Shown one piece after another: positions 1 to 64,000 of a stretch of 64,000 nucleotides of DNA. The number at the start of each line of letters is the position of its first letter. The first letter of the stretch is position 1. The DNA is from Balaenoptera acutorostrata. Lineage: Eukaryota > Chordata > Mammalia > Artiodactyla > Balaenopteridae. Location: NCBI RefSeq assembly GCF_949987535.1, contig NC_080078.1:31950942-32014941 (forward strand). Direction: 5' to 3'. The notes under the pieces were generated by a model. That model was not told the DNA's origin and searched no databases. It saw only the letters and a list, made by a program, of their open reading frames with translations. Both the position numbers and the translations under genes were made by a program.

Positions 1-2136
1 AGTGTTTTAAGGAACAGGTTAAAAAGAGAATCCTAATGTGATTTCTTGATAATGGGTGTGTTCCTTATCTTAACCTAGTGTCTAAACTCTTCTCCATGGC
101 TGGGCCTCCAAATAACATACCTTTACGTGCTAAGGGGTATCTAGAGAGTGGGATAGGTTTAATAACTACCATAACCCTAATGCGTACCCTAACCCTAACT
201 CCTACTCTAACCCTAACGCGTACCGTAATCCTAACCCGTACCCTAAACCGAGCCCTAACCCTAACACTAACCCTAACCCTAACCCTAACCCATACCCTAC
301 GCCGCACCCGAACCCCTTCCCGAACCCGTACCCTAAGCCGTACCCTAACCCTCACCCTCACCCTAACCCTAACCCTAAGCTACCCTTGACTGCTTTGCCT
401 CCAATAGATTTCCTAAGCACTAGTGTTTTAAGGAACAGGTTAAAAAGAGAATCCTAATGTGATTTCTTGATAATGGGTGTGTTCCTTATCTTATCCTAGT
501 GTATAAACTCTTCTCCATGGCTCGTCCCCCAAATAATATTCCTTTAAATGCTAAGGGGTATCTAGAAAGTGGGGTAGGTTTAATAACTACCCTAAACCTA
601 ACGCGTACCCTAACCCTAACCCCTACCCTAACCCTAACGCGTACCGTAATCCTAATCCGTAACCTAAACCGAGCCCTAACCCTAACACTAACCCTAACCC
701 TAACCCATACCCTACGCCTTACCCGAACCCCTCCCCGAACCCGTACCCTAAGCCGTACCCTAAACCTCACCCTAACCCTAACCCTAACACTAAGCTACCC
801 TTGATTGCTTCTGCCTCCAATAGATTTCCTAAGCACTAGTGTTTTAAGGAACAGGTTAAAAAGAGAATCCTAATGTGATTTCTTGATAATGGGTGTGTTC
901 CTTATCTTATCCTAGTGTCTAAACTCTTCTCCATGGCTGGACCCCCAAATAATATTCCTTTACGTGCTAAGGGGTATCTAGAGAGGGGGATAGGTTTAAT
1001 AACTACCCTAACCCTAACGCGTACCCTAACCCTAACCCCATCTTAACACTAATTCGTACCCTAATCCTAACCCGTACCCTAAACCGAGCCCTAACCCTAA
1101 CACAAACCCTAAACCTAACCCTAACCCATAACCTACGCCGTACCCGAACCCGTCCCCGAACCCGTACCCTAAGCCGGACCCTAAACCTCACCCTAACCCT
1201 AACCCTAACCCTAAGCTACCCTTGACTGCTTCTGCCTCCAATAGATTTCCTAAGCACTAGTGTTTTAAGGAACAGGTTAAAAAGAGAATCCTAATGTGAT
1301 TTCTTGATAATGGGTGTGTTCCTTATCTTATCCTATTGTCTAAACTCTTCTCCATGGCTGGACCCCCAAATAATATTCCTTTACATGCTAAGGGGTATCT
1401 AGAAAGTGGGGTAGGTTTAATAACTACCCGAAACCTAACGCGTACCCAAACCCTAACCCCTACCCTAACCCTAACGCGTACCCTAATCCTAACCCGTACC
1501 CTAAACCGAGCCCTAACCCTATCCCTAACCCTAACCCTAACAAGTGCCCTATGCCCTACACGAACCACTCCCCGAACCCGTACCCTAAGCCGTACTCTAA
1601 CCTTCACCCTAAACCTAACCCAAACCCTAACCCTATCCCTAAGCTACCCTTGACTGCTTCTGCCTCCAATAGATTTCCTAAGCACTAGTGTTTAAGGAAC
1701 AGTTTAAAAATAGAATCCTAATGTGATTTCTTTATATGGGTGTTTTCCTTATCTTATCCTAGTGTCTAAACTCTTCTCCATGGCTGGACCCCCAAATAAT
1801 ATTCCTTTACGTGCTAAGGGGTACCTAGAGAGTGGGATAGGTTTAATAACTATCTTAACCTTAAAGCGTACCCTAACCGTAACCCCTACCCTAACACTAA
1901 CGCGTACCCTAACCCTAACCCCTACCCTAACCATAACGCGTTCCGTAATCCTAACCCGTAAACTAAACCGGGCCCTAACCCTAACACTAACCCAAACCGT
2001 AACCCATACCCTACGTCCTACCCGATACCCTCCCCAAACCCGTACCCTAAGCCGTACCCTAACCCTCACCCTAACCCTAACCCTAACCCTAAGCTACCCT
2101 TGACTGCTTCTGCCTCCAATAGATTTCCTAAGCACT
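1..2136 (+). repeat. Region A, units 1-5
   Basis: Unit starts are 1, 422, 838, 1259 and 1687. Unit 1 carries a distinctive head (CTTAACCTAG, GGGCCTCC, AATAACATACC) and a CTCCTACTC block in its body that recurs in units 28, 39 and 67. Unit 2 has GTGTATAAACTC and TTAAATGC; its body is nearly that of units 29 and 40. Unit 3 has a body variant with a deleted base and no close partner in the window. Units 4 and 5 correspond to units 30/41 and 31/42. Confidence 0.85.
1687..2136 (+). repeat. Unit 5, with a 36-bp body expansion
   Basis: The unit is 450 bp long. Its body holds an extra copy of the six-hexamer 36-bp block near the start, so the CCCCTA hexamer occurs twice between CGCGTA-type hexamers. 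The head has small deletions around TTTCTTTATATGGG and starts with AGTGTTTAAGG, one T short. Units 31 (12890-13340, 451 bp) and 42 (17517-17955, 439 bp, with a further 12-bp loss) carry the same expansion and head, so the event predates the duplication of this stretch. Confidence 0.85.
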
Positions 2137-2974
2137 AGTGTTTTAAGGAACAGGTTAAAAAGAGAATCCTAATGTGATTTCTTCATAATGGGTGTGTTCC
2201 TTATCTTATCCTAGTGTCTAAACTCTTCTCCATGGCTGGACCCCCAAATAATATTCCTTTACGTGCTAAGGGGTATCTAGAGAGTGGGATAGGTTTAATA
2301 AGTACCCTAACTCTAACGCGTACCCTAACCCTAACCCCTACCCTAGCCCTAACGCGTACCCTAATCCCAACCCGTAACCTAAACCGAGCCCAAACCCTAA
2401 CACTAACCCTAACCCTAACGCTAACCCATACCCTACGCCGTACCCGATACGCTCCCCAAACCCGTACCCTAAGCCGTACCCTAACCCTCACCCTAAACTT
2501 AACCCTAACCCTAAGCTACCCTTGACTGCTTCTGTCTCCAATAGATTTCCTAAGCACTAGTGTTTTAAGGAACAGGTTAAAAAGAGAATCCTAATGTGAT
2601 TTCTTCATAATGGGTGTGTTCCTTATTTTATCGTAGTGTCTAAACTCTTCTCCAGGGCTGGACCCCCAAATAATATTCCTTTACGTGCTAAGGGGTATCT
2701 AGAGAGTGTGATAGGTTTAATAACTACCCTAACCCTAATGCGTACCCTAACCCTAACCCCTACCATAACCTTAACGCGTACCCTAATCCTAACCCGTACC
2801 GTAAACCGAGCCCTAAACCTAACACTAACCCTAACCCTAACCCTAAACCATACCCTATGCCCTACCCGAACCCCTCCCCGAACCCGTACCCTAAGTCGTA
2901 CCCTAACCGTCACCCTAACCCTAACCCTAAGCTACCCTTGACTGCTTCTGCCTCCAATAGATTTCCTAAGCACT

Positions 2975-3446
2975 AGTGTTTTAAGGAACAGGTTGAAAAG
3001 AGAATCCTAATGTGATTTCTTGATAATGGGTGTGTTCCTTATCTTATCCAAGTGTCTAAACTCTTCTCCATGGCTGGACCCCCAAATAATATTCCTTTAC
3101 GTGCTAAGGGGTATCTAGAGAGTGGGATAGGTTTAATAACTACCCTAACCCTAACGCATACCCTAACTATCTAGAGAGTGGGATAGGTTTAATAACTACC
3201 CTAACCCTAACGCATACCCTAACCCTAACCCCTACCCTAACCCTAACGCGTACCCTAATCCTATCCCGTACCCTAAACCGATCCCTAACTCTAACACTAA
3301 CCCTAACCGAAACCAATACCCTACGCCTTACCGGAACCCCTCCCCGAACCCGTACCCTAAGTCGTACCCTAACCGTCACCCTAACCCTAACCCTAACCCT
3401 AAGCTACCCTTGACTGCTTCTGCCTCCAATAGATTTCCTAAGCAGT
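2975..3446 (+). repeat. Unit 8, with a 56-bp internal duplication
   Basis: The segment at 3112-3167, from TATCTAGAGAGTG across the head-body junction to the first hexamers, is repeated at once at 3168-3223, making the unit 472 bp. Unit 33 (13757-14172, 416 bp) has the same subfamily mutations (CTATCCCG, ACCGATCC, CCTTACCGG) without the duplication. The insertion length is not a multiple of six, unlike most length changes in this array. The duplicate is also present in unit 19 (7719-8190). Confidence 0.92.
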
Positions 3447-5108
3447 AGTGTTTTAAGCAACAGGTTAAAAAGAGAATCCTAATGTGATTTCTTGATAATG
3501 GGTGTGTTCCTTATCTTATCCTAGTGTCTAAACTCTTCTCCATGGCTGGACCCCCAAATAATATTCCTTTACGTGCTAAGGGGTATCTGCAGAGTGGGAT
3601 AGGTTTAATAACTACCCTAACCCTAATGCGTACCCTAACCCTAACCCCTACCCTAACCCTAACGCGTACCCTAATCCTAACCCGTACCCTAAACCGAGCC
3701 CTAACCCTAACACTAACCATAACCCTAACCCTAACCCATACCCTACGCCGTACCCGATACCCTCCCCAAACCCGTACCCTAAGCCGTACCCTAACCCTCA
3801 CCCTAAACTTAACCCTAACCCTAAGCTACCCTTGACTGCTTCTGCCTCCAATAGATTTCCTAAGCACTAGTGTTTTAAGGAACAGGTTAAAAAGAGAATC
3901 CTAATGTGATTTCTTCATAATGGGTGTGTTCCTTATCTTATCCTAGTGTCTAAACTCTTCTCCATGGCTGGACCCACAAATAATATTGCTTTACGTGCTA
4001 AGGGGTATCTAGGGAGTGGGATAGGTTTAATAACTACCCTAACCCTAACGGGTACCCTAACCCTAACCCTACCCTAACCCTAATGCGTACCCTAATCCTA
4101 ACCCATACCCTAAACCGAGCCCTAAACCTAACACTAACCCTAACCCTAACCCTAACACATACCCTACGCCGTACCCGAACCCCTCCCCGCACCCGTACAC
4201 TAAGCCGTACCCTAACCCTCACCCTAACCCTAACCCTAACCCTATGCTACCCTTGACTGCTTCTGCCTCCAATAGATTTCCTAAGCACTAGTGTTTTAAG
4301 GAACAGGTTAAAAAGAGAATCCTAATGTGATTTCTTGATAATGAGTGTGTTCCTTATCTTATCCTAGTGTCTAAACTCTTCTCCATGGCTGGACCCCCAA
4401 ATAATATTCCTTTACGTGCTAAGGGGTATCTAGAGAGTGTGATAGGTTTAATAAGTACCCTAAACTTAACGCGTACCCTAACCCTAACCCCTACCTAACC
4501 CTAACGCGTACCCTAATCCTAACCCGTACCCTAAACCGAGCCCAAACCCTAACACTAACCGTAACCCTAAGCCTAACGCATACCCTACTCCGTACCCGAT
4601 ACCCTCCCAAAACCCGTACCCAAAGCCGTACCCTAACCCTCACCCTAAACCTAACCCTAACACTAAGCTACCCTTGACTCCTTCTGCCTCCAATAGATTT
4701 CCTAAGCACTAGTGTTTTAAGGAACAGGTTAAAAAGAGAATCCTAATGTGATTTCTTGATAATGGGTGTGTTCCTTATCTTATCCTAGTGTCTAAACTCT
4801 TCTCCATGGCTGGACCCCCAAATAATATTCCTTTACGTGCTAAGGGGTATCTAGAGAGTGGGATAGGTTTAATAACTACCCTAAGCCTAACCACTACCCT
4901 AACACTAACGCGTACTCTAATCCTAACCCGTACCCTAAACCGAGCCCTAACCCTAACACTAACCCTAACCCTAACGCATACCCTACGCCGTACCCGAACC
5001 CCTCCCCGAACGCGTACCCTAAGCCGTACCCTAACCCTCACCCTAACCCTAACCCTAACCCTAAGCTACCCTTGACTGCTTCTGCCTCCAATAGATTTCC
5101 TAAGCACT

Positions 5109-5614
5109 AGTGTTTTAAGGAACAAGTTAAAAAGAGAATCCTAATGTGATTTCTTGATAATGGGTGTGTTCCTTATCTTATCGTAGTGTCTAAACTCTTC
5201 TCCATGGCTGGACCCCCAAATAATATACCTTTACGTGATAAGGGGTATCTAGAGAGTGGGATAGGTTTAATAACTACCCTAACCCTAATGCGTACCCTAA
5301 CCCTAACCCCTACCCTAACCCTATCGCGTACCCTAATTCTAACCCATACCCTAAACCGAGCCCTAACCCTAACACTAACCCTAACCCTAACCCATACCCT
5401 ACGCCTTACCGGAACCCCTCCCCGAATCCGTACCCTAAGCCGTACCCTAACCCTCACCCTAACCTTAACCCTAACCCTAACCTATACCCTACGCCATACC
5501 CGAACCCCTCCCCGAACCCGTACCCTAAGCCGTACCCTAAGCCGTACCCTAACCCTAACCCTAACGCTAAACTACCCTTGACTGCTTCTGCCTCCAATAG
5601 ATTTCTTAAGCACT
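5109..5614 (+). repeat. Unit 13, 506-bp unit with a doubled body end
   Basis: After a normal body reaching CCCTCACCC, a second body end follows (CCTATACCC, GCCATACCCG, and GCCGTACCCTAA twice) before the tail. The added piece is about 90 bp and resembles the body end of units such as the one at 25585. Unit 48 (20058-20557, 500 bp) has the same composite end, which ties regions A and B together. Unequal pairing between body segments of two units is the simplest origin. Confidence 0.85.
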
Positions 5615-7718
5615 AGTGTTTTAAGGAACAGGTTAAAAAGAGAATCCTAATGCGATTTCTTGATAATGGGTGTGTTCCTTATCTTATCCTAATGTCTAAA
5701 CTCTTCTCCATGGCTGGACCCCCAAATAATATTCCTTTACGTGCTAAGGGGTATCTAGAGCGTGGGATAGGTTTAATAACTAACCTAACACTAACGCGTA
5801 CCCTAATCCGAACCCCTACCCCAACCGGAACGCGTACCCTAATCCTAACCCGTACCCTAAACCGAGCCCTAACCCTAACACTAACCATAACCCTAACCCT
5901 AACCCATACCCTACGCCGTACCCGAACCCCTCCCCGAACCCGTACCCTAAGCCGTACCCTAACCCTGACCCTAAACCTAACCCTAACTCTAAGCTACCCT
6001 TGACTGCTCCTGCCTCCAATAGATTTCCTAAGCACTAGTGTTTTAAGGAACAGGTTAAAAAGACAATCCTAATGTGATATCCTGATAATGGGTGTGTTCC
6101 TTATCTTATCCTAGTGTCTAAACTCTTCTCCATGGCTGGACCCCCAAATAATATTCCTTTACCTGCTAAGGGGTATCTAGAGAGTGGGATAGGTTTAATA
6201 ACTACCCTAACCCTAACACGTACCCTAACCCTAACCGCTACCCTAACCCTAACGCGTAACCTAATCCTAACCCATACCCTAAACCGAGCCCTAACCCTAA
6301 CACTAACCCTAACCCTAACCCTAACCCATACCCTACGCCGTACCCGATACCCTCCCCAAACCCGTACCCTAACCCGTACCCTAACCCTCACCGTAACCCT
6401 AACCCTAACCCTAAGCTACACTTGACTGCTTCTGCCTCCAATAGATTTCCTAAGCACTAGTGTTTTAAGGAACAGTTTAAAAAGAGAATCCTAATGTGAT
6501 TTCCTGATAATGGGTATGTTCCTTATCCTATCCTAGTGTCTAAACTCTTCTCCATGGCTGGACCCCCAAATAATATTCCTTTACGTGCTAAGGGCTATCT
6601 AGAGAGTGGGATAGGTTTAATAACTACCCTAACCCTAATGCGTACCCTAACCCTAACCCCTACCCTAACCCTAACGCGTACCCTAATCCTAACCCGTACC
6701 ATAAACCGAGCCCTATCCCTAACACTATCCCTAAACCTAACCCCAACCTATACCCTACGCCGTACCCGAACCCCTCCACAAACCCGTACCCTAAGCCGTA
6801 CCCTAACCCTCACCCTAACCCTAACCCTAACTCTAAGCTACCCTTGAGTGCTTCTGCCTCCAATAGATTTCCTAAGCACTAGTGTTTTAAGGAACAGGTT
6901 AAAAAGAGAATCCTAATGTGATTTCTTCATAATGGGTGTGTTCCTTATCTTATCCTAGTGTCTAAACTCTTCTCCATGGCTGGACCCCCAAATAATATTC
7001 CTTTACGTGCTAAGGGGTATCTAGAGAGTGGGATAGGTTTAATAAGTACCCTAACTCTAACGCGTACCCTAACCCTAACCCCTACCCTAGCCCTAACGCG
7101 TACCCTAATCCCAACCCGTAACCTAAACCGAGCCCAAACCCTAACACTAACCCTAACCCTAACGCTAACCCATACCCTACGCCGTACCCGATACGCTCCC
7201 CAAACCCGTACCCTAAGCCGTACCCTAACCCTCACCCTAAACTTAACCCTAACCCTAAGCTACCCTTGACTGCTTCTGTCTCCAATAGATTTCCTAAGCA
7301 CTAGTGTTTTAAGGAACAGGTTAAAAAGAGAATCCTAATGTGATTTCTTCATAATGGGTGTGTTCCTTATTTTATCGTAGTGTCTAAACTCTTCTCCAGG
7401 GCTGGACCCCCAAATAATATTCCTTTACGTGCTAAGGGGTATCTAGAGAGTGTGATAGGTTTAATAACTACCCTAACCCTAATGCGTACCCTAACCCTAA
7501 CCCCTACCATAACCTTAACGCGTACCCTAATCCTAACCCGTACCGTAAACCGAGCCCTAAACCTAACACTAACCCTAACCCTAACCCTAAACCATACCCT
7601 ATGCCCTACCCGAACCCCTCCCCGAACCCGTACCCTAAGTCGTACCCTAACCGTCACCCTAACCCTAACCCTAAGCTACCCTTGACTGCTTCTGCCTCCA
7701 ATAGATTTCCTAAGCACT

Positions 7719-8190
7719 AGTGTTTTAAGGAACAGGTTGAAAAGAGAATCCTAATGTGATTTCTTGATAATGGGTGTGTTCCTTATCTTATCCAAGTGTG
7801 TAAACTCTTCTCCATGGCTGGACCCCCAAATAATATTCCTTTACGTGCTAAGGGGTATCTAGAGAGTGGGATAGGTTTAATAACTACCCTAACCCTAACG
7901 CATACCCTAACTATCTAGAGAGTGGGATAGGTTTAATAACTACCCTAACCCTAACGCATACCCTAGCCCTAACCCCTACCCTAACCCTAACGCGTACCCT
8001 AATCCTATCCCGTACCCTAAACCGATCCCTAACTCTAACACTAACCCTAACCGAAACCAATACCCTACGCCTTACCGGAACCCCTCCCCGAACCCGTACC
8101 CTAAGTCGTACCCTAACCGTCACCCTAACCCTAACCCTAACCCTAAGCTACCCTTGACTGCTTCTGCCTCCAATAGATTTCCTAAGCAGT
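7719..8190 (+). repeat. Unit 19, duplicate of unit 8 with the same 56-bp insertion
   Basis: It has the same length and structure as the unit at 2975. At least two substitutions separate them (GTGTGTAAAC for GTGTCTAAAC, and CCCTAGCCC for CCCTAACCC after the insertion). It fixes the insertion as older than the A1/A2 duplication. Confidence 0.9.
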
Positions 8191-9853
8191 AGTGTTTTAA
8201 GCAACAGGTTAAAAAGAGAATCCTAATGTGATTTCTTGATAATGGGTGTGTTCCTTATCTTATCCTAGTGTCTAAACTCTTCTCCATGGCTGGACCCCCA
8301 AATAATATTCCTTTACGTGCTAAGGGGTATCTGCAGAGTGGGATAGGTTTAATAACTACCCTAACCCTAATGCGTACCCTAACCCTAACCCCTACCCTAA
8401 CCCTAACGCGTACCCTAATCCTAACCCGTACCCTAAACCGAGCCCTAACCCTAACACTAACCATAACCCTAACCCTAACCCATACCCTACGCCGTACCCG
8501 ATACCCTCCCCAAACCCGTACCCTAAGCCGTACCCTAACCCTCACCCTAAACTTAACCCTAACCCTAAGCTACCCTTGACTGCTTCTGCCTCCAATAGAT
8601 TTCCTAAGCACTAGTGTTTTAAGGAACAGGTTAAAAAGAGAATCCTAATGTGATTTCTTCATAATGGGTGTGTTCCTTATCTTATCCTAGTGTCTAAACT
8701 CTTCTCCATGGCTGGACCCACAAATAATATTGCTTTACGTGCTAAGGGGTATCTAGGGAGTGGGATAGGTTTAATAACTACCCTAACCCTAACGGGTACC
8801 CTAACCCTAACCCCTACCCTAACCCTAATGCGTACCCTAATCCTAACCCATACCCTAAACCGAGCCCTAAACCTAACACTAACCCTAACCCTAACCCTAA
8901 CACATACCCTACGCCGTACCCGAACCCCTCCCCGCACCCGTACACTAAGCCGTACCCTAACCCTCACCCTAACCCTAACCCTAACCCTATGCTACCCTTG
9001 ACTGCTTCTGCCTCCAATAGATTTCCTAAGCACTAGTGTTTTAAGGAACAGGTTAAAAAGAGAATCCTAATGTGATTTCTTGATAATGAGTGTGTTCCTT
9101 ATCTTATCCTAGTGTCTAAACTCTTCTCCATGGCTGGACCCCCAAATAATATTCCTTTACGTGCTAAGGGGTATCTAGAGAGTGTGATAGGTTTAATAAG
9201 TACCCTAAACTTAACGCGTACCCTAACCCTAACCCCTACCTAACCCTAACGCGTACCCTAATCCTAACCCGTACCCTAAACCGAGCCCAAACCCTAACAC
9301 TAACCGTAACCCTAAGCCTAACCCATACCCTACTCCGTACCCGATACCCTCCCAAAACCCGTACCCTAAGCCGTACCCTAACCCTCACCCTAAACCTAAC
9401 CCTAACACTAAGCTACCCTTGACTCCTTCTGCCTCCAATAGATTTCCTAAGCACTAGTGTTTTAAGGAACAGGTTAAAAAGAGAATCCTAATGTGATTTC
9501 TTGATAATGGGTGTGTTCCTTATCTTATCCTAGTGTCTAAACTCTTCTCCATGGCTGGACCCCCAAATAATATTCCTTTACGTGCTAAGGGGTATCTAGA
9601 GAGTGGGATAGGTTTAATAACTACCCTAAGCCTAACCACTACCCTAACACTAACGCGTACTCTAATCCTAACCCGTACCCTAAACCGAGCCCTAACCCTA
9701 ACACTAACCCTAACCCTAACCCATACCCTACGCCGTACCCGAACCCCTCCCCGAACGCGTACCCTAAGCAGTACCCTAACCCTCACCCTAACCCTAACCC
9801 TAACCCTAAGCTACCCTTGACTGCTTCTGCCTCCAATAGATTTCCTAAGCACT

Positions 9854-10365
9854 AGTGTTTTAAGGAACAAGTTAAAAAGAGAATCCTAATGTGATTTCTT
9901 GATAATGGGTGTGTTCCTTATCTTATCGTAGTGTCTAAACTCTTCTCCATGGCTGGACCCCCAAATAATATATCTTTACGTGATAAGGGGTATCTAGAGA
10001 GTGGGATAGGTTTAATAACTACCCTAACCCAAAAGCGTACCCTAACCCTAAACCGAACCCTAACACTAATGCGTACCATAATCCTAACCCATTCCCTAAA
10101 CCGAGCCCTAATCCTAACACTAACTCTAACCCTAACCCTAACACATACCCTACGCCGTACCCGAACCCCTCCCCCAACCCGTACCCTAAGCCGTACCCTA
10201 ACCCTCACCCTAACCTTAACCCTAACCCTAACCTATACCCTACGCCATACCCGAACCCCTCCCCGAACCCGTACCCTAAGCCGTACCCTAAGCCGTACCC
10301 TAACCCTAACCCTAACGCAAAACTACCCTTGACTGCTTCTGCCTCCAATAGATTTCTTAAGCACT
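9854..10365 (+). repeat. Unit 24, copy of unit 13 with an interior replaced by another subfamily
   Basis: Its head (AACAAG, ATCGTAG, GTGATAAGG) and doubled body end match unit 13, its positional partner. The body interior from about 10028 to 10185 instead matches unit 45 (18799-19220), including CCCAAAAGCG, AACCGAACCC, TAATGCGTACCATAATCC and TAATCCTAACACTAACTC. The length grows by one hexamer to 512 bp. The pattern of one allele flanked on both sides by another is that of gene conversion. Confidence 0.85.
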
Positions 10366-11631
10366 AGTGTTTTAAGGAACAGGTTAAAAAGAGAATCCTA
10401 ATGCGATTTCTTGATAATGGGTGTGTTCCTTATCTTATCCTAATGTCTAAACTCTTCTCCATGGCTGGACCCCCAAATAATATTCCTTTACGTGCTAAGG
10501 GGTATCTAGAGCGTGGGATAGGTTTAATAACTAACCTAACACTAACGCGTACCCTAATCCGAACCCCTACCCCAACCGGAACGCGTACCCTAATCCTAAC
10601 CCGTACCCTAAACCGAGCCCTAACCCTAACACTAACCATAACCCTAACCCTAACCCATACCCTACGCCGTACCCGAACCCCTCCCCGAACCCGTACCCTA
10701 AGCCGTACCCTAACCCTGACCCTAAACCTAACCCTAACTCTAAGCTACCCTTGACTGCTTCTGCCTCCAATAGATTTCCTAAGCACTAGTGTTTTAAGGA
10801 ACAGGTTAAAAAGACAATCCTAATGTGATATCCTGATAATGGGTGTGTTCCTTATCTTATCCTAGTGTCTAAACTCTTATCCATGGCTGGACCCCCAAAT
10901 AATATTCCTTTACCTGCTAAGGGGTATCTAGAGAGTGGGATAGGTTTAATAACTACCCTAACCCTAACACGTACCCTAACCCTAACCGCTACCCTAACCC
11001 TAACGCGTAACCTAATCCTAACCCATACCCTAAACCGAGCCCTAACCCTAACACTAACCCTAACCCTAACCCTAACCCATACCCTACGCCGTACCCGATA
11101 CCCTCCCCAAACCCGTACCCTAACCCGTACCCTAACCCTCACCGTAACCCTAACCCTAACCCTAAGCTACACTTGACTGCTTCTGCCTCCAATAGATTTC
11201 CTAAGCACTAGTGTTTTAAGGAACAGTTTAAAAAGAGAATCCTAATGTGATTTCCTGATAATGGGTATGTTCCTTATCCTATCCTAGTGTCTAAACTCTT
11301 CTCCATGGCTGGACCCCCAAATAATATTCCTTTACGTGCTAAGGGCTATCTAGAGAGTGGGATAGGTTTAATAACTACCCTAACCCTAATGCGTACCCTA
11401 ACCCTAACCCCTACCCTAACCCTAACGCGTACCCTAATCCTAACCCGTACCATAAACCGAGCCCTATCCCTAACACTATCCCTAAACCTAACCCCAACCT
11501 ATACCCTACGCCGTACCCGAACCCCTCCACAAACCCGTACCCTAAGCCGTACCCTAACCCTCACCCTAACCCTAACCCTAACTCTAAGCTACCCTTGACT
11601 GCTTCTGCCTCCAATAGATTTCCTAAGCACT

Positions 11632-41147: not shown

Positions 41148-41563
41148 AGTGTTTTAAGGAACAAGTTAAAAAGAGAATCCTAATGTGATTTCTTCATAAT
41201 GGGTGTGTTCCTTATCTTATCCTAGTGTCTAAACTCTTCTCCATGGCAGGACCCAAAAATAATATTCCTTTACGTGCTAAGGGGTATCTAGAGAGTGGGA
41301 TAGGTTTAATAATGGCCCTAACCCTGATGCGTACCCTAACCCTAACCCCTACCCAAACCCTAACGCGTGTCCTAATGCTAATCTGTACCCTAAACCGAGC
41401 CCTAACCCTAACACTAAACCTAACCCTAACCCATACCCTACGCCGTACCCGATCCCCTCCCCAAACCCGTATCCTAAGCCGTACCCTAACCCTCACCCTA
41501 AACCTAACACTAACCCTAAGCTACCCTTGACTGCTTCTGCCTCCAATAGATTTCCTAAGCACT

Positions 41564-42110
41564 AGTGTTTTAAGGAACAAGTTAAAAAGAGAATCCTAAT
41601 GTGATTTCTTGATAATGGGTGTGTTCCTTATCTTATCCTAGTGTCTAAACTCTTCTCCATGGCTGGACCCCCAAATAATATTCTTTTACGTGCTAAGCGG
41701 TATCTAGAGAGTGGGATAAGTTTAATAACTACCTTAAACCTAACGCGTACCGAACCCTAACCCCTACCCTAACCCTAACGCGTACCCTAATCCTAACCCA
41801 TACCCTAAACCGAGCCCTAACCCTAACACTAAGCCTAACCCTAACCCTAAACCATACCCTACGCCGTACCCGAAACCCTCCCCGAACCCTTACCCTAAGC
41901 CGTACCCTAACCCTCACCCTAACCCTAACCCTAACCCTAAACCGAGCCATAACCCTAACACTAACCCTAAACCTAACCCATACCCTACGCCGTACCCGAT
42001 CCCCTCCCCAAACCCGTACCCTAAGCCGTACCCTAACCCTCACCCTCACACTAAACCTAACCCTAAGCTACCCTTGACTGCTTCTGCCTCCAATAGATTT
42101 CCTAAGCACT
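41564..42110 (+). repeat. Unit 100, the longest unit (547 bp)
   Basis: One head and tail enclose a body with two ACCGAG blocks and two CCCATACCC or CCATACCC to CCCTCACCC ends, one of the GAAACCCTCCCC kind and one of the GATCCCCTCCCC kind. The body is thus two body ends fused after a run of four CCCTAA hexamers at about 41914-41940. It looks like a recombination between two different body types with loss of the intervening tail and head. Its C2 copy is 52816-53362. Confidence 0.85.
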
Positions 42111-50400: not shown

Positions 50401-53400
50401 AGGTGAAAAAGAGAATCCTAATGTGATTTCTTGATAATGGGTGTGTTCCTTATCTTATCCTAGTGTCTAAACTCTTCTCCATGACTGGACCCCCAAATAA
50501 TATTCCTTTACGTGCTAAGGGGAATCTAGTGAGTGGGATAGGTTTAATAACTACCCTAACCCTAACCCCTACCCTAAACCTAACGCGTACCCTAACCCTA
50601 ACCCCTACCCTAACCCTAACGCGTACCCTAATCCTAACCCGTACCCTAAACCGAGCCCTAACCCTAACACTAACCCTAACCCTAACCCTAAACCATACCC
50701 TACGCCGTACCCGAACCACTCCCCGAACCCGTACCATAAGCCGAACCCTAAACCTCACCCTAACCCTAACCCTAACCCTAAGCTACCCTTGAGTGCTTCT
50801 GTCTCCAATAGATTTCCTAAGCACAAGTGTTTTAAGGAACAGGTTAAAAAGAGAATCCTAATGTGATTTCTTGATAATGGGTGTGTTCCTTATCTGATCC
50901 TAGTGTCTAAACTCTTCTCCATGGCTGGACCCCCAAATAATATTCCTTTACGTGCTAATGGGTATCTAGAGAGTTGGATAGGTTTAAGAACTACCCTAAC
51001 CCTATCGCGTACCCTAACCCTAACCGGTACCCTAAACTTAACGCGTACACTAATCCTAACCCGTACCCTAAACCGATCCCTAACCCTAACACTAACCCTA
51101 ACCCTAACCCATACCCTACGCCGTACCCGATCCCCTCCCCAAACCCGTACCCTAAGCCGTACCCTAACCCTCACCCTCACACTAAACCTAACCCTAAGCT
51201 ACCCTTGTCTGCTTCTTCCTCCAATAGATTTCCTAAGCAGTAGTGTTTTAAGGAACAGGTTAAATAGAGAATCCTAATGTGATTTCTTGATAATGGGTGT
51301 GTTCCTTATCTTATCCTAGTGTCTAAACTCTTCTCCATGGCTGGACCCCCAAATAATATTCCTTTACGTGCTAAGGGGTATCTAGAGAGTGGGATAGGTT
51401 TAATAACTACCCTAACCCTAACGCGTACCCTAACCCTAACCCCTACCCTAACCCTAACGCGTACCCTAATCCTAACCCGTAGCCTAAACCGAGCCCTAAC
51501 CCTAACACTAACCCTAACCCTAACCCTACGCCTTACCCGAACCCCTCCCCGAACCCGTACCCTAAGCCGTACCCTAACCCTCACCCTAACCCTAACCCTA
51601 AGCTACCCTTGAGTGCTTCTGCCTCCAATAGATTTCCTAAGCACTAGTGTTTTAAGGAACAGGTTAAAAAGAGAATCCTAATGTGATTTCTTCATAATGG
51701 GTGTGTTCCTTATCTTATCCTAGTGTCTATTCACTTCTCCATGGCTGGACCCCCAAATAATATTCCTTTACGTGCTAAGGGGTATCTAGAGAGTGGGATA
51801 GGTTTAATAACTACCCTAACCCTAACGCGTACCCTAACCCTAACCACTACCCTAACCCTAACGCGTACCCTAATCCTAACCCGTACCCTAAACCGAGCCC
51901 TAACCCTAACACTAACCCTAACCCTAACCCATACCCTACGCCGTACCCGATCCCCTCTCCAAACCCGTACCCCAAGCCGTACCCTAACCCTCACCCTAAC
52001 CCTAACCCTAACCCTAAGCTACACTTGACTGCTTCTGCCTCCAATAGATTTCCTAAGCACTAGTGTTTTAAGGAACAAGTTAAAAAGGGAATCCTAATTT
52101 GATTTTTTGATAATGGGTGTGTTCCTTATCTTATCCTAGTGTCTAAACTCTTCTCCATGGCTGGACCCCCAAATAATATTCCTTTACGTGCTAAGGGGTA
52201 TCTAGAGAGTGGGATAGGTTTAATAACTACCCTAACCCTAACACTAACCCTAACCCTAACCGTAACCCATATCCTACGCCGTACCCGAACCCCTCCCCGA
52301 ACCCGTACCCTAAGCCGTACCCTAACCCTCACCCTAACCCTAACCCTAACCCTAAGCTACCCTTGACTACTTCTGCCTCCAGTAGATTTCCTAAGCACTA
52401 GTGTTTTAAGGAACAAGTTAAAAAGAGAATCCTAATGTGATTTCTTCATAATGGGTGTGTTCCTTATCTTATCCTAGTGTCTAAACTCTTCTCCATGGCA
52501 GGACCCAAAAATAATATTCCTTTACGTGCTAAGGGGTATCTAGAGAGTGGGATAGGTTTAATAATGGCCCTAACCCTGATGCGTACCCTAACCCTAACCC
52601 CTACCCAAACCCTAACGCGTGTCCTAATGCTAATCTGTACCCTAAACCGAGCCCTAACCCTAACACTAAACCTAACCCTAACCCATACCCTACGCCGTAC
52701 CCGATCCCCTCCCCAAACCCGTATCCTAAGCCGTACCCTAACCCTCACCCTAAACCTAACACTAACCCTAAGCTACCCTTGACTGCTTCTGCCTCCAATA
52801 GATTTCCTAAGCACTAGTGTTTTAAGGAACAAGTTAAAAAGAGAATCCTAATGTGATTTCTTGATAATGGGTGTGTTCCTTATCTTATCCTAGTGTCTAA
52901 ACTCTTCTCCATGGCTGGACCCCCAAATAATATTCTTTTACGTGCTAAGCGGTATCTAGAGAGTGGGATAAGTTTAATAACTACCTTAAACCTAACGCGT
53001 ACCGAACCCTAACCCCTACCCTAACCCTAACGCGTACCCTAATCCTAACCCATACCCTAAACCGAGCCCTAACCCTAACACTAAGCCTAACCCTAACCCT
53101 AAACCATACCCTACGCCGTACCCGAAACCCTCCCCGAACCCTTACCCTAAGCCGTACCCTAACCCTCACCCTAACCCTAACCCTAACCCTAAACCGAGCC
53201 ATAACCCTAACACTAACCCTAAACCTAACCCATACCCTACGCCGTACCCGATCCCCTCCCCAAACCCGTACCCTAAGCCGTACCCTAACCCTCACCCTCA
53301 CACTAAACCTAACCCTAAGCTACCCTTGACTGCTTCTGCCTCCAATAGATTTCCTAAGCACTAGTGTTTTAAGGAACAGGTTAAAATGAGAATCCTAATG

Positions 53401-56400
53401 TGATTTCTTCATAATGGGTGTGTTCCTTATCTTATCCTAGTGTCTAAACTCTTCTCGATGGCTGGACCCCCAAATAATATTCCTTTACGTGCTAAGGGGT
53501 ATCTAGAGAGTGGGATAGGTTTAATAACTACCCTAACTCTAACGCGTACCTTAACCCTAACCCCTACCCTAACCCAAACGCGTACTCTAATCCTAACCCG
53601 TACCCTAATCCGAGCCATAACCCTAACACTAACCCTAACCCTAACCCTAACCCATAACCTACTCCGTACCCGATCCCCTCTCCAAACCCGTATCCTAAGC
53701 CGTACCCTAACCCTCACCCTCACCCTAAACCTAACCCTAAGCTACCCTTGACTGCTTCTGCCTCCAATAGATTTCCTAAGCACTAGTGTTTTAAGGAACA
53801 ATTTAAAAAGAGATTCCTAATGTGATTTCTTCATAATGGGTGTGTTCCTTATCTTATCCTACTGTCTAAACTCTTCTCCATGGCAGGACCCACAAATAAT
53901 ATTCCTTTACGTGCTAAGGGGTATCTAGAGAGTGCCATAGGTTTAATAACTACCCTAACCCTAATGCGTAACCTAAACCTAACCACTACCCTAACCCTAA
54001 CGCGTACCCTAAACCTATCCCGTACCCTAAACCAAGCCCTAACCGTAACACTAACCCTAACCCTAACCCTAACCCATACCCTACGCCGAACCCGATTCCC
54101 TCGCAAACCCGTACCCTAAGCCGTACCCTAATCCTCACCCTAACCCTAACCCTAAGCTACCCTTGACTGCTTCTGCCTCCAATAGATTTTCTAAGCACTA
54201 GTGTTTTAAGGAACAAGCTAAAAAGAGAATCCTAATGTGATTTCTTGATAATGGGTGTGTTCCTTATCTTATCCTAGTGTCTAAACTCTTCTCCATGGCT
54301 GGACCCCCAAATAATATTCCTTTACGTGCTAAGGGGTATCTAGAGAGTGGGATAGGTTTAATAACTGCCCTAACCCTAACGCGTACCCTAACCCTAACCC
54401 CTACCCTAACCCTAACGCGTACCCTAATCCAAACCCCTACCCTAAAACGAGCCCTAACCCTAACACTAACCCTAACCCTAACCCATACCCTACGCCGTAC
54501 CCGATCCCCTCCCCAAACCCGTATCCTAAGCTGTACACTAATCCTCACCCTAAACCTAACCCTAACCCTAAGGTACCCTTGACTGCTTCTGCCTCCAATA
54601 GATTTCCTAAGCACTAGTGATTTAAGGAACAGGTTAAAAAGGGAATCCTAATGTGATTTCTTGATAATGGGTGTGTTCCTTCTCTAATCCTAGTGTCTAA
54701 ACTCTTCTCCATGTCTAGACCCCAAATAAAATTCCTTTACGTGCTAAGGGGTATCTAGAGAGTGGGATAGGTTTAATAACTACCCTAACCCTAATGCGTA
54801 CACTAAACCTAACCACTACCCTAACCCTAACGCGTACCCTAAACCGAGCCCTAACCCTAACACTAACCCTAACCCTAACCCATAACCTACGCCTTACCCG
54901 AACCCCTCCCCGAACACGTACCCGAAGCCGTACCCTAACCCTCACCCTAACCCTAACCCTAAGCTACCCTTGACTGCTTCTGCCTCCAGTAGATTTCCTA
55001 AGCACTAGTGTTTTAAGGAACAAGTTAAAAAGAGAATCCTAATGTGATTTCTTCATAATGGGTGTGTTCCTTATCTTATCCTAGTGTCTAAACTCTTCTC
55101 CATGACAGGACCCACAAATAATATTCCTTTACGTGCTAAGGGGTATCTATAGAGTGGGATAGGTTTAATAACTACCCTAACCCTAATGCGTACCCTAACC
55201 CTAAACACTACCCTAACCCTAACGCGTACCCTAATCCTATCCCGTACCCTAAACCGAGCCCTAACACTAACACTAACCCTAACCCTAACCCTAACCCATA
55301 CCCTACGCCGTACCCGATTCCCTCGCAAACCCGTACCCTAAGCCGTACCCTAACGCTCACCCTAACCCTAACCCTAACACTAAGCTACCTTTGACTGCTT
55401 CTGCCTCCAATAGATTTCCTAACCACTAGTGTTTTAAGGAACAAGTTAAAAAGAGAATCCTAATATGATTTCTTGATAATGGGTGTGTTCCTTATCTTAT
55501 CCTAGTGCCTAAGCTCTTCTCCATGGCTGGACCCACAAATAATATTCCTTTACGTGCTAAGGGGTATCTAGAGAGTGGGATAGGTTTAATAACAACCCTA
55601 ACCCTAAAGCGTACCCAACCCTATCCCCTACCCTAACCCTAATGCATACCCTAATCCTAACCCGTACCCTAAACCGAGCCCTAACCCTAACACTAACCCT
55701 AACCCTAACCCTAACCCATACCCTACGCCGAAGCCGATTCCCTCGCAAACCCGTACCCTAAGCCGTACCCTAATCCTCACCCTAACCCTAACCCTAACAC
55801 TAAGCTACCCTTGACTGCTTCTGTCTCCAATAGATTTCCTAAGCACTAGTGTTTTAAGGAACAGGTTAAAAAGAGAATCCTAATGTGATTTCTTGATAAT
55901 GGGTGTGTTACTTATCTTATCCTCGTGTCTAAACTCTTCTCCATGGCTGGACCCACAAATAATATTCCTTTACGTGCTAAGGGGTATCTAGAGAGTGGGA
56001 TAGGTTTAATAACTACCCTAACCCTAACGCGTACCCTAACCCTAACCCCTACCCTAACCCTAACGCGCACCCTAATCCTAACCCGTACCCTAAACCGAGC
56101 CCTAACCCTAACACTACACCTAACCCTAACCCATACCCTACATCGTACCCGAACCCCTCCCCGAACCCGTACCCTAAGCCGTACCCTAACCCTCACCCTA
56201 ACCCGAACACTAACCCTAAGCTACCCTTGACTGCTTCTGCCTCCAATAGATTCCCTAAGCACTAGTGTTTTAAGGAACAAGTTAAAAAGAGAATCCTAAT
56301 GTGATTTCTTGATAATGGGTGTGTTCCTTATCTTATCCTAGTGTCTAAAGTCTTCTCCATGGCAGGACCTAAAAATAATATTACTTTACGTGCTAAGGGG

Positions 56401-58746
56401 TATCTAGAGAGTGGGATAGGTTTAATAACTACCGTAACCCTAATGCGTACCGTAACCCTAACCCCTACCCTAACCCTAACGCGTACCCTAATCCTAAACC
56501 GTACCCTAAACCGAGCCCTAACCCTAACAGTAACCCTAACCCTAACCCATACCCAACGCCGTACCCGATCCCCTCCCCAAACCCGTACCCTAAGCCGTAC
56601 CCTAACCCTCACCCTAAACCTAACACTAACCCTAAGCTACCCTTGACTGCTTCTGCCTCCAATAGATTTCCTAAGCACTAGTGTTTTCAGGAACAGGTTA
56701 AAAAGAGAATCGTAATGTGATTTCTTGATAATGGGTGTGTTCCTTATCTTATCCTAGTGTCTAAACTCTTCTCTATGGCTGGATCCCCAAATAATATTCC
56801 TTTACGTGCTAAGGGGTATCTAGAGAGTGGGATAGGTTTAATAACTACCCTAACCCTAACGCGTACCCTAACCCTAACGCCTACCCTAACCCTAATGCGT
56901 ACCCTAATCCTAACCCCTACCCTAAAACGAGCGCTAACCCTAACACTAACCCTAACCCTAACCCATACCCTACGCCGTATCCGATCCCCTCCCCAAACCC
57001 GTACCCTAAGCCGTACACTAATCATCACCCTAAACCTAACACTAACCCTAAGCTACCCTTGACTGCTTCTGCCTCCAATAGATTTCCTAAGCATTAGTGA
57101 TTTAAGGAACAGGTTAAAAAGAGAATCCTAATGTGATTTCTTGATAATGGCTGTGTTCCTTATCTAATCCTAGTGTCTAAACTCTTCTCCATGGCTGGTC
57201 CCCCAAATAATATTCCTTTACGTGCTAAGGGGTATCTAGAGAGTGGGATAGGTTTAATAACTACCCTAACCCTAACGAGTACCCAACCCTATTCCCTACC
57301 CTAACACTGACGCGTACCCTAATCCTAATCCGTACCCTAAACAGAGCCCTAACCCTAACCCTAACCCATACCCTACGCCTTACCCGAAACCCTCCCCGAA
57401 CCCGTAACCTAAGCCGTACCCTAAGCCTCACCCTAACCCGAACACTAACCCTAAGCTACCCTTGACTGCTTCTGACTCCAATAGATTCCCTAAGCACTAG
57501 TGTTTTAAGGAACAGGTTAAAAAGAGAATCCTAATGTGATTTCTTGATAATGGGTGTGTTCCTTATCATATCCTAGTGTCTAAACTCTTCTCCATGGCTG
57601 GACCCCCAAATAATATTCCTTTACATGCTAAGGGGTATCTAGAGATTTGGATAGGTTTAATAACTACCCTAACCCTAACGCGTACCCTAACCCTAACCCC
57701 TACCCTAACCCTAACGCGTACCCTAATCCTATCCCGTACCCTAAACCTAGCCCTAACCCTAACCCTAACCCTAACCCATACCCTACGCCGTACCCGAACC
57801 CCTCCCCGAACCCGTACCCTAAGCCGTACCCTAACCCTCACCCTAACCCTAACCCTAACACTAAGCTAGCCTTGACTGCTTCTGCCTCCAATAGATTTCC
57901 TAAGCACTAGTGTTTTAAGGAACAGGGTAAAAAGAGAATCCTAATGAGATTTCTTGATAATGGGTGTGTTCCTTATCTTATCCTAGTCTCTAAACTCTTC
58001 TCCATGGCTGGACCCCCAAATAATATTCCTTTACGTGCTAAGGGGTATCTAGAGAGTGGGTTAGGTTTAATAACTACCCTAACCCTAACACGTACCCTAA
58101 CCCTAACCCCTACCCTAACCCTAACGCGTACCCTAATCCTAACCCGTACCCTAAAACGAGCCCTAACCCTAACACTAACCCTAACCCTAACCCTAACCCA
58201 TACCCTACGCCTTACCCGAACCCCTCCCCGAACCCGTAACCTAAGCCGTACCCTAAGCCTCACCCTAACCCGAACACTAACCCTAAGCTACCCTTGACTG
58301 CTTCTGCCTCCAATAGATTCCCTAAGCACTAGTGTTTTAAGGAACAAGTTAAAAAGAGAATCCTAATGTGATTTCTTGATAATGGGTGTGTTCCTTATCT
58401 TATCCTAGTGTCTAAAGTCTTCTCCATGGCAGGACCTAAAAATAATATTCCTTTACGTGCTAAGGGGTATCTAGAGAGTGGGATAGGTTTAATAACTACC
58501 GTAACCCTAATGCGTACCGTAACCCTAACCCCTACCCTAACCCTAACGCGTACCCTAATCCTAAACCGTACCCTAAACCGAGCCCTAACCCTAACAGTAA
58601 CCCTAACCCTAACCTATACCCAACGCCGTACCCGATCCCCTCCCCAAACCCGTACCCTAAGCCGTACCCTAACCCTCACCCTAAACCTAACACTAACCCT
58701 AAGCTACCCTTGACTGCTTCTGCCTCCAATAGATTTCCTAAGCACT
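47495..58746 (+). repeat. 27-unit higher-order repeat C2, 11252 bp
   Basis: This is the second copy of the block at 36243-47494; add 11252 to each unit start given there. Shared sequence actually runs from 36189 to 47498 against 47441 to 58750. On the left the match stops at 36188/47440 (C against A), and on the right at 47499/58751 (A against T). The 58 bp at 36189-36246 are therefore the interval in which the exchange occurred. Confidence 0.95.
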
Positions 58747-61700
58747 AGTGTTTTAAGGAACAGGTTAAAAAGAGAATCCTAATGTGATTTCTTGATAATG
58801 GGTGTGTTCCTTATCTTATCCTAGTGTCTAAACTCTTCTCTATGGCTGGATCCCCAAATAATATTCCTTGAAGTGCTAAGGGGTATCTAGAGAGTGGGAT
58901 AGGTTTAATAACTACCCTAACCCTAACGCGTACCCTAACCCTAACCCCTACCCTAACCCTAACGCGTACCCTAATCCTAACCCCTACCCTAAAACGAGCC
59001 CTAACCCTAACACTAACCCTAACCCTAACCCATACCCTACGGCGTATCCGTTCCCCTCCCCAAACCCGTACCCTAAGCCGTACACTAATCCTCACCCTAA
59101 ACCTAACCCGAACCCTAAGCTACCCTTGACTGCTTCTGCCTCCAATAGATTTCCTAAGCACTAGTGATTTAAGGAACAGGTTAAAAAGAGAATCCTAATG
59201 TGATTTCTTGATAATGGGTGTGTTCCTTATCTAATCCTAGTGTCTAAACTCTTCTCCATGGCTGGTCCCCCAAATAATATTCCTTTACGTGCTAAGGGGT
59301 ATCTAGAGAGTGGGATAGGTTTAATAACTACCCTAACCCTAACGAGTACCCAACCCTATTCCCTACCCTAACCCTGACGCGTACCCTAATCCTAATCCGT
59401 ACCCTAAACCGAGCCCTAAACCTAACCCTAACCCTAACCCATACCCTACGCCTTACCCGAAACCCTCCCCGAACCCGTATCCTAAGCCGTACCCTAACCC
59501 TCACCCAAACCCTAACCATAAGCTACCCTTGACTGCTTCTGCCTCCAGTAGATTTCCTAAGCACTAGTGTTTTAAGGAACAAGTTAAAAAGAGAATCCTA
59601 ATGTGATTTCTTGATAATGGGTGTGTTCCTTATCTTATCCTAGTGTCTAAACTCTTCTCCATGGCTGGACTCCCAAATAATATTCCTTTACATGCTAAGG
59701 GGTATCTAGAGAGTGGGATAGGTTTAATAACTACCCTAACCCTAACGCGTACCCTAACCCCTACCCTAACACTAACGCGTACCCTAATCCTAACCCGTAC
59801 CCTAAACCGAGCCCTAACTCTAACACTAACCCCTACCCTAACCCTAACGCGTACCCTAATCCTAACCCGTACCCTAAACCGAGCCATAAACCTAGCACTA
59901 ACCCTAACCCTTACCCTAAACCATACCCTACTCCGTACCCGATCCCCTCCCCAAACCCGTACGCTAAGCCGTACCCTAACCCTCACCCTCACCCTAAACC
60001 TAACCCTAAGCTACCCTTGACTGCTTCTGCCTCCAATAGATTTCCTAAGCACTAGTGTTTTAAGGAACAAGTTAAAAAGAGAATCCTAATGTGATTTCTT
60101 CATAATGGGTGTGTTCCTTATCTTATCCTAGTGTCTAAACTCTTCTCCATGGCAGGTCCCACAAATAATATTCCTTTACGTGCTAAGGGGTATCTATAGA
60201 GTGGGATAGGTTTAATAACTACCCTAACCCTAATGCGTACCCTAACACTAACCACTACCCTAACCCTAATGCGTGCCCTAATCCTATCCCGTACCCTAAA
60301 CCGAGCCCTAACACTAACACTATCCCTAACCCTAACCCTAACCCATACCCTACGCCGTACCCGATTCCCTCGTAAACCCGTACCCTAAGCCGTACCCTAA
60401 CCCTCACCCTAACCCTAACCCTAACACTAAGCTACCCTTGACTGCTTCTGCCTCCAATAGATTTCCTAAGCACTAGTGTTTTAAGGAACAAGTGAAAAAG
60501 AGAATCCTAATGTGATTTCTTGATAATGGGTGTGTTCCTTATCTTATCCTAGTGTCTAAGCTCTTCTCCATGGCTGGACCCGCAAATAATATTCCTTTAC
60601 GTGCTAACGGTATCTAGAGAGTGGGATAGGTTTAATAACAACCCTAAGCCTAAAGCGTACCCAACCCTATCCCCTACCCTAACCTTAATGCATACCCTAA
60701 TCCTAACCCGTACCCTAAACCGAGCCCTAACCCTAACACTAACCCTAACCCTCAACCATACCCTACGCCGTACCCGAACCCCTCCCCGAACCCGTACCAT
60801 AAGCCGAACCCTAAACCTCACCCTAACCCTAACCCTAGCCCTAAGCTACCCTTGACTGCTTCTGCCTCCAATAGATTTCCTAAGTACTAGTGTTTTAAGG
60901 AATAGGTTAAAAGTGAATCCTAATGTGATTTCTTGATAATGGGTGTTTTCCTCATCTTATCCGAGTGTCTAAACTCTTCTCCATGGCTGGACACCCAAAT
61001 AATATTCCTTTACGTGCTAAGGGGTATCTAGAGAGTGGGATAAGTTTAATAACTACTCTAACCCTAACGCGTACACTAACCCTAACCCCTACCCTAACCC
61101 TAGGGCGTACCATAATCCTAACCCGTACCCTAAACCGAGCCCTAACCCTAACACTAACCCTAACCCTAACCCTAACCCATACCCTACGCCGTACCCGATC
61201 CCCTCCCCAAACCCGTACCCTAAGCCGTACCCTAACCCTCACCCTCACACTAAACCTAACCCTAAGCTACCCTTGACTGCTTCTGCCTCCAATAGATTTC
61301 CTAAGCACTAGTGTTTTAAGGAACAGGTTAAAAAGAGAATCCTAATGTGATTTCTTCATAATGGGTGTGTTCCTTATCTTATCCTAGTGTCTAAACTCTT
61401 CTCCATGGCAGGACCCACAAATAATATTCCTTTACGTGCTAAGGGGTATCTAGAGAGTGGGATACGTTTAACAACTACCCTAACCCTAACGCGTAACCTA
61501 ACCCTAACCACTACCCTAACACTAACGCGTACCCTAATCCTAACCCGTAACCTAAACCGAGCGCTAACCCTAACACTAACCCTAACCCTAACCCTAACGC
61601 ATACCCTACGCCGTACCCGAACACCTCCCCGAACCCGTACCCTAAGCCGTACCCTAAACCTCACCCTAACCCTAACCCTAACCCTAAGCTACCCTTGACT

Positions 61701-64000
61701 GCTTCTGCCTCCAATAGATTTCCTAAGCACTAGTGATTTAAGGAACAGGGTAAAAAGAGAATCCTAATGTGATTTCTTGATAATGGGTTTCTTCCTTATC
61801 TTATCCTAGTGTCTAAACTCTTCTCCATGGCTGGACCCCCAAATAATAATCCTTTACGTGCTAAGGGGTATCTAGAGAGTGGGTTAGGTTTAATAACTAC
61901 CCTAACCCTAATGCGTACCCTAACCCTAACCCCTACCCTAACACTAATGCGTACCCTAATCCTAACCCGTACCCTAAACCGAGCCCTAATGCTAACACTA
62001 ACCGTAACCCTAACCCATACCCTAAGCCGTACCCGATCCCCTACCCAAACCCATACCCTAACCGTCACCCTAACCCTAACCCTAACCCTAAGCTACCCTT
62101 GACTGCTTTGCCTCCAATAGATTTCCTAAGCACTAGTGTTTTAAGGAACAGGTTAAAAAGAGAATCCTAATGTGATTTCCTGATAATGGGTGTGTTCCTT
62201 ATCTTATCCTAGTGTCTAAACTCTTCTCCATGTCTGGACGCCCAAATAATATTTCTTTACGTGCGAAGGGGAATCTAGAGAGTGGGATAGGTTCAATAAC
62301 TACCCTAACCCTAACCCCTACCGTAACCCTAACGCGTACCCTAAACCGAGCCGTAACCCTAAAAATAACCCTAACCCTCACCCTAACCCATACCCTACGC
62401 CGTACCCGAACCCCTCCCCGAACCCGTACCCTAAGCCGTACCCTAAACCTCACCCTAAACCTAATCCTAACCCTAAGCTACCCTTGACTGCTTCTGCCTC
62501 CAATAGATTTATTAAGCCCTAGTGTTTTAAGGAACAGGTTAAAAAGAGAATCCTAATGTGATTTCTTGATAATGGGTGGGTTCCTTATCTTATCCTAGTG
62601 TCTACACTCTTCTCCATGGCTGGACCCCCAAATAATATTCCTTTACGTGCTAAGGGGTGTCTAGAGAGTGGGATAGGTTTAATAACTACCCTAACCCTAA
62701 TGCGTACCCTAACCCTAACCCCTACCCTAACCCTAACGCGTACCCTAATCCTAACCCGTACCCTAAACCGAGCCCTAACTCTAACACTAAACCCTACCCA
62801 AACCCTAACGCGTACACTAATCCTAAACCGTAACCTAAATCGAGCTCTAACCCTAACACTAACCCTAACCCTAACCCTAACCCATACCCTACGCCATACC
62901 CGAACCTCTCCCCGAACTCGTACCCTAAGCCGTACCCTAACCCTCACCCTAACCCTAATCCTAACCCTAAGCTACCCTTGACTGCTTCTGCCTCCAATAG
63001 ATTTCCTAAGCACTAGTGTTTTAAGGAACAGGTTAAAAAGAGAATCCTAATGTGATTTCTTGATAATGGGTGTGTTCCTTATCTTATCCTAGTGTCTAAA
63101 CTCTTCTCCATGGCTGTACCCGCAAATAATATTCCTTTACGTGCTAAGGGGTATCTAGAGAGTGGGATAGGTTTAATAACTACCCTAACCCTAACGCGTA
63201 CCCTAATCCTAACCCCTACCCTAACCCTAACGTGTACCCTAATCCTAACCCGTACCCTAAACCGAGCCCTAACCCTAGCACTAACCCTAACCCTAACCCT
63301 AACCCATACCCTACGCCTTACCCGAACCCCTCCCCGAACCCGTACCCTAAGCCGTATCCTAACCCTCACCCTAACCCTAACCCTAACACTAAGCTACCCT
63401 TGACTGCTTCTGCCTCCAATAGATTTCCGAAGCACTAGTGTTTTAAGGAACAGGTTAAAAAGAGAATCCTAATGTGATTTCTTCATAATGGGTGTGTTCT
63501 TTATCTTATCCTAGTGTCTAAACTCTTCTCCATGGCAGGACCCACAAATAATATTCCTTTACGTGCTAAGGGGTATCTAGAGAGTGGGATAGGTTTAATA
63601 ACTACCCTAACCCTAATGCGTACCCTAACCCTAACCCCTACCCTAACCCTAACGCGTATCCTAAACCGAGCCCTAAACCTAACACTAACCCTAACCCTAA
63701 ACCTAACACATACCCTACGCCCTACCCGAACCCCTCCCCGAACCCGTACCCTATGCCGTACCCTAACCCTCACCCTAACCCTAACCCTAACCCTAAGCTA
63801 CCCTTGACTGCTTCTGTCTCCAATAGATTTCCTAAGCACTAGTGTTTTAAGGAACAGGTTAAAAAGAGAATCCTAAAGTGATTTCTTGATAATGGGTGTG
63901 TTCCTTATCTTATCCTAGTGTCTAAACTCTTCTCCATGGCTGGACCCCCAAATAATATTCCTTTACATGCTAAGGGGTATCTAGAGAGTTTGATAGGTTT
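58747..64000 (+). repeat. Region C right flank, units 141-153
   Basis: Unit starts are 58747, 59163, 59566, 60054, 60475, 60889, 61310, 61732, 62135, 62521, 63015, 63437 and 63841; the last is cut by the window end. Units 141 and 142 match units 109 and 110 (GGATCCCC, AACGAGTACCC, CTATTCCC), while unit 113 matches unit 108, which shows that 113 was once followed directly by 141. Unit 149 is 386 bp, with a shortened body. Heads with GCAGGACCCACAAAT occur at 61310 and 63437, and a GCAGGTCCCACAAAT form at 60054. Confidence 0.85.
59566..60053 (+). repeat. Unit 143, 488-bp unit with doubled body middle outside the duplication
   Basis: Structure and length equal those of the unit at 37477, but the second half of the body is of another kind (CATAAACCTAGCAC, GATCCCCTCCCC) and the head has GGACTCCCAAAT and TTTACATGC. 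It shows that the doubled middle spread before the 11-kb duplication and then recombined with other body ends. Confidence 0.8.

Follow-up and report, generated by a model that had tools for sequence, protein, structure and literature searches.

What kind of element fills a 64-kb stretch of DNA (positions 1–64000, hereafter the window) in which telomere-type hexamers alternate with non-telomeric sequence, and how could it have arisen? The whole window was found to be a single satellite array, non-coding and uninterrupted from end to end. It is probably a subtelomeric or terminal heterochromatic satellite that originated by amplification of a chromosome-end junction; its most probable identity is the satellite that Adegoke, Arnason and Widegren (1993) described from baleen whales.

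A profile built from the non-telomeric part of the repeat (the head) gave 155 nhmmer hits, two of which are 33-bp fragments; the other 153 are heads, every one on the + strand, and they delimit 151 complete units. The consensus unit of 422 bp joins a head of 216 bp to a body of 206 bp made up of CCCTAA-type hexamers. Among complete units, lengths of 416 bp (40/151) and 422 bp (34/151) are the commonest. Head length, measured after extending each hit to the limits of the profile model, is 216 bp in 134 units, 215 bp in 16, and 214 bp in one; body length ranges from 86 to 331 bp, with a median of 200 bp and peaks at 200 bp (43 units) and 206 bp (39 units). Long arrays with a period of 416–422 bp were also returned by Tandem Repeats Finder, among the first 150 of its 302 repeats. 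Mean column identity is 0.976 for heads and 0.951 for bodies, and units aligned to the consensus have a mean ungapped identity of 0.965. The consensus body agrees in register with CCCTAA at 0.838; telomere identity in 30-bp body windows has a median of 0.80, versus 0.47 for shuffled bodies, and windows of the consensus head reach at most 0.50, the shuffled level. The array is not a continuous (TTAGGG)n tract without spacer, since a head of 214–216 bp is present in each of the 151 complete units. The initial annotation, which had described a satellite with a half telomere-type unit of about 416 bp (about 210 bp of non-telomeric sequence plus about 204 bp of hexamers) and had set it apart from a simple interstitial telomeric tract, is borne out by the consensus built from the units and by an autocorrelation of 0.531 at lag 416; its tandem array also stands, its count of 152 units being replaced by 151 complete ones.

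Shorter periods are nested within the unit. Autocorrelation at lags 6, 12, 18, 24, 30, and 36 is 0.455, 0.470, 0.492, 0.411, 0.419, and 0.460, respectively, where composition alone gives 0.271; lag 18 exceeds lags 6, 12, and 24. Further values are 0.526 at lag 422, 0.427 at lag 838, and 0.441 at lag 11,252. The consensus body comprises 33 hexamers (numbered from 0), nine of which have a T at position 5: hexamers 1, 4, 7, and 10, and hexamers 19, 21, 23, 25, and 27. In run statistics picked post hoc, with the hexamer pattern already seen, the first of these series has an 18-bp period (permutation p = 0.012), the second a 12-bp period (p = 0.005), both runs jointly occur in a fraction of 6e-5 of 100,000 shuffles, and hexamers 0–5 match hexamers 6–11 at 34 of 36 bases (scan p = 0.041); shared variants suggest a single founder for all units, so that these tests concern one ancestral tract. 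Nested periods of 6, 18, 36, and about 416 bp, hexamers ending in TA at every third place in the first part of the body, and a 36-bp repeat formed by the first twelve hexamers had all been proposed beforehand and are recovered here. The 12-bp period of hexamers 19–27 had been overlooked. Four zones (A–D) can be distinguished along the body; their limits in an example unit are given in Table 1.

Indel sizes track the local period. Relative to the consensus, multiples of 6 make up 69 of 69 indels in zone B, 21 of 21 in zone D, 19 of 38 in zone A, and 1 of 16 in zone C (151 units); in heads they make up 10 of 29, all ten lying within five bases of the head–body junction. Among the multiple-of-6 indels, multiples of 18 account for 13 of 22 in zone A and the junction versus 3 of the 60 in zones B and D taken together (Fisher 4e-7, a value that is too small because some events are shared by descent; 109 of the 151 units, second block copies excluded). 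This suggests that the nested periods were left by slippage or unequal exchange. The 6-bp register of the hexamers is usually kept, not always: body length modulo 6 is 2 in 119 units, 1 in 28, 0 in two, and 4 in two, and 31 of the 151 units carry, within the hexamer tract, an indel whose size is not divisible by 6, so that the earlier statement of a register that is never left had to be given up.

Above the level of the unit, mean unit-to-unit similarity (alignment score per base) is flat, at 0.922–0.927, for lags of 1–59 units except 11 and 27. Unit pairs with a similarity of at least 0.99 are found mainly at the 11-unit lag (14/140) and the 27-unit lag (27/124), a few other lags contributing one or two each. 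They stem from local duplications, and an array-wide higher-order repeat with a fixed multi-unit period was not found in the window. The 11-unit blocks, of about 4.7 kb, are limited to about 2.0–17.9 kb; across 7,031 bp of hand-trimmed ranges, their copies differ by 23 mismatches. The 11,252-bp duplication shows zero mismatches across 11,310 bp (36189–47498 vs. the sequence 11,252 bp downstream) and because of this is either very recent or an assembly artefact. Elsewhere, shorter pairs of 0.8–1.2 kb with 97–98% identity occur at other lags. The grouping of units into multi-kb blocks, as first noted, is thus real as far as blocks of 11 and 27 units exist; they are local duplications and impose no order on the array as a whole. 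A 56-bp tandem duplication spanning the head–body junction was observed at 3112–3223 and 7856–7965, one instance per copy of the 4,744-bp block. Of the body windows, the eight that least resemble telomere, the ones inspected for other DNA between units, all fall within the two units that bear this duplication, at 2929 and 7673.

Table 1 Features of the satellite array, with coordinates relative to the window. Zone limits were transferred from the consensus to the example unit; hexamers are numbered from 0.
Feature	Position	Strand	Description	Basis
Satellite array	1..64000	+	153 heads, 151 complete units, single orientation	nhmmer, unit calls, autocorrelation
Example unit	2091..2512	+	422 bp, no indels relative to the consensus	nhmmer, unit calls, alignment
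Head of example unit	2091..2306	+	216 bp, non-telomeric	nhmmer, unit calls
Zone A	2311..2382	+	Hexamers 0–11; 18-bp period inside two 36-bp copies	Consensus limits transferred to gap-free unit; indel steps of 18/36
Zone B	2383..2424	+	Hexamers 12–18; mostly CCCTAA, copy number changes by 6-bp steps	Consensus, indels
Zone C	2425..2478	+	Hexamers 19–27; T at position 5 in alternate hexamers, 12-bp period	Consensus hexamers
Zone D	2479..2508	+	Hexamers 28–32; CCCTAA in 4/5 in consensus, length changes by 6-bp steps	Consensus, indels
11-unit block, tandem copies	1972..10111	+	1972–4093 with 6716–8837 (lag 4,744 bp); 4041–5366 with 8786–10111 (lag 4,745 bp)	
Further copy of the 4,744/4,745-type block	5350..11748	+	5350–6997 with 10101–11748 (lag 4,751 bp)	
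11-unit block, tandem copies	10622..17862	+	10622–13235 with 15249–17862 (lag 4,627 bp)	
27-unit block, tandem duplication	35928..58962	+	Block of 11,252 bp	

Variant hexamers sit at matching places in the body across units, which indicates copying of whole units and not a separate addition of telomere to each one. We infer that a chromosome-end junction, in which 216 bp of subtelomeric sequence adjoined a degenerate stretch of proximal telomere of about 200 bp, turned into a tandem unit and was then amplified. The 18/36-bp pattern of zone A and the 12-bp pattern of zone C would be older expansions within the founding tract. The array itself changes at three scales: by gain and loss of hexamers in the near-canonical zones, by gain and loss of 18 or 36 bp in zone A, and by tandem duplication of 11- or 27-unit blocks; unequal exchange, slippage, or break-induced replication would be the agent. 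Its role would be that of passive bulk heterochromatin near chromosome ends, with leftover TTAGGG sites as putative binding sites for shelterin proteins.

The satellite described by Adegoke, Arnason and Widegren in 1993 is reported to lie at the chromosome ends of every extant baleen whale and to have a unit of 422 bp, partly made up of telomere-like subrepeats; we take it to be the mysticete satellite labelled 'heavy'. Compared by description, the unit in the window fits this satellite in its telomere part, in the CpG depletion of its head, and in its length, the reported 422 bp being the length of the consensus. Passages of PMC3975639 cite Adegoke 1993 for satellite DNA that contains sequence akin to telomeric repeats and, jointly with Arnason and Widegren 1989, for such repeats as a primordial part of the repetitive DNA of cetaceans; passages of PMC5088352 cite it for telomeric sequences within satellite DNA, and passages of PMC7763226 for whale heterochromatin. 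Its title, as cited, includes 'terminal chromosome localization' (Chromosoma 102:382). On this description and these citations, the satellite is most probably already known. The novelty implied in the initial annotation does not hold, telomere-related sequence inside satellite DNA being a described kind, for which baleen whales, Sparidae fish, and Chinese hamster are cited in passages of PMC3975639. The passages of PMC3975639, PMC7763226, PMC10919930, PMC5615363, PMC5088352, PMC9498494, and PMC6182297 that were consulted do not describe a 422-bp unit, and a literature search for two head strings and for wordings of a 422-bp repeat returned nothing. By their titles in the reference list of PMC3975639, a Sparidae satellite (Garrido-Ramos 1998) is likewise linked to telomeric repeats, and potato centromeric arrays (Tek and Jiang 2004) and Chinese hamster internal telomeric sequences (Faravelli 2002) are likewise large telomere-type arrays away from the telomere proper. 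Compared by description, all three differ from the array in the window: the Sparidae unit is reportedly about 187 bp, the potato arrays are of the plant telomere type, and the hamster arrays are reported to consist mostly of hexamers without a 216-bp head. If the array is the whale satellite, the window reveals long-range structure beyond the reach of single cloned units, namely the zones, the indels that follow the local period, and the 11- and 27-unit blocks. It offers a clear example of satellite change at several scales, and leaves knowledge of telomeres unaltered.

Several points weigh against a terminal whale satellite of this origin. The window holds the array only, with no flank outside it, and the terminal position is therefore inferred. 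The likeness to the 1993 satellite, in its reported 422-bp unit and half-telomere structure, is one of description. When hexamers were permuted over the whole body, lags 18 and 36 were not significant (p = 0.10 and 0.09, respectively), because the periods are confined to zones. Finally, head variants are rich in transversions: among 107 ungapped heads, out of 123 considered, transitions make up 62 of 203 distinct variants, or 193 of 520 when each occurrence is counted. About two thirds of mammalian variants are expected to be transitions, and the low share is unexpected for a mammalian or other vertebrate genome. By frequency class, the transition share in heads and bodies is 0.28–0.42, and 5 of the 23 differences between the recent blocks are transitions. 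Sequencing error was judged an unlikely source of the transversion excess, which is also present among variants found in more than five of 123 units (transitions 8/19 in heads, 19/62 in bodies). The agreement of the 11,252-bp copies also speaks against sequencing error, unless that duplication is an artefact. C and G sites are more variable than A and T sites.

The same low transition share would be less surprising if the array belonged to another organism with TTAGGG telomeres, in which a like satellite arose by the same mechanism without common descent with that of whales. Telomeres of this type are known from vertebrates, from marine invertebrates, and from some plants (passages of PMC5615363), and the likeness to the whale satellite is one of length and description. 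This alternative is nonetheless rather unlikely, given a consensus whose length equals the 422 bp reported for that satellite and a CpG observed/expected ratio of 0.158 in the pooled heads, which fits a CpG-methylated vertebrate genome; the bodies, at 1.637, are CpG-rich. A different location, in a centromeric or pericentromeric satellite that captured telomeric repeats, for example at an old chromosome fusion, and was then amplified (heterochromatic interstitial telomeric sequences, het-ITS), is improbable. Telomeric repeats are known from centromeric heterochromatin of frogs, rodents, and Solanum (passages of PMC3975639), and the uniform orientation of units is compatible with either location; however, the window contains no CENP-B box on either strand (a motif not required at centromeres), nor does it show the head-to-head arrangement that a fusion might leave, all 155 nhmmer hits being on the + strand, although an inversion point could lie outside this one window. 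As to the blocks, it is doubtful that their structure is in part an assembly artefact. The perfect agreement of the 11,252-bp copies, where units of the array otherwise diverge by several per cent, points that way for this duplication in particular, yet the divergence between the smaller blocks implies that diverged block duplications do exist in the array; an artefact would be compatible with any of the other explanations.

Very improbable, by our estimate, is that the hexamers are kept as a reserve of canonical TTAGGG shelterin-binding sites beside the chromosome end, with repeated break repair giving rise to the transversion-rich spectrum. Divergence is lower in the 17 canonical consensus hexamers than in the 16 variant ones (3.9% vs. 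6.1%; p = 0.012, 123 units), the window holds 1,034 TAACCCTAA sites, and the transition counts in heads would agree with such repair. Many variant hexamers, however, hold CpG, and change is higher at CpG: C>T/G>A at body CpG positions averages 5.7%, versus 1.9% for C>T at other C (medians 1.8% vs. 0.7%), which could explain the divergence gap. Selection on canonical hexamers, being confounded by CpG, is suggestive only. The low transition share is found in heads too, where there are no telomeric sites to keep. These alternatives overlap, another host sharing the mechanism of the whale satellite and an artefact concerning one block, and the probabilities we attach to them need not sum to one; an amplified chromosome-end junction, most probably the whale satellite, is preferred.

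No sign of coding or RNA-gene content was seen: no open reading frame of at least 150 aa was found in the window (starts ATG, GTG, and TTG; frames closed at both ends listed), and no Rfam family at gathering scores within 1–5500, the stretch searched. A 20-base head pattern had no exact match in collections of viral and genome contigs, and the head at 792–1007 had none among plasmids or phages; these collections are non-animal, may omit records of the genome that the window comes from, and carry little weight for identity. Quadruplex motifs are confined to one strand, with 0 on the + strand and 356 non-overlapping motifs on the - strand.

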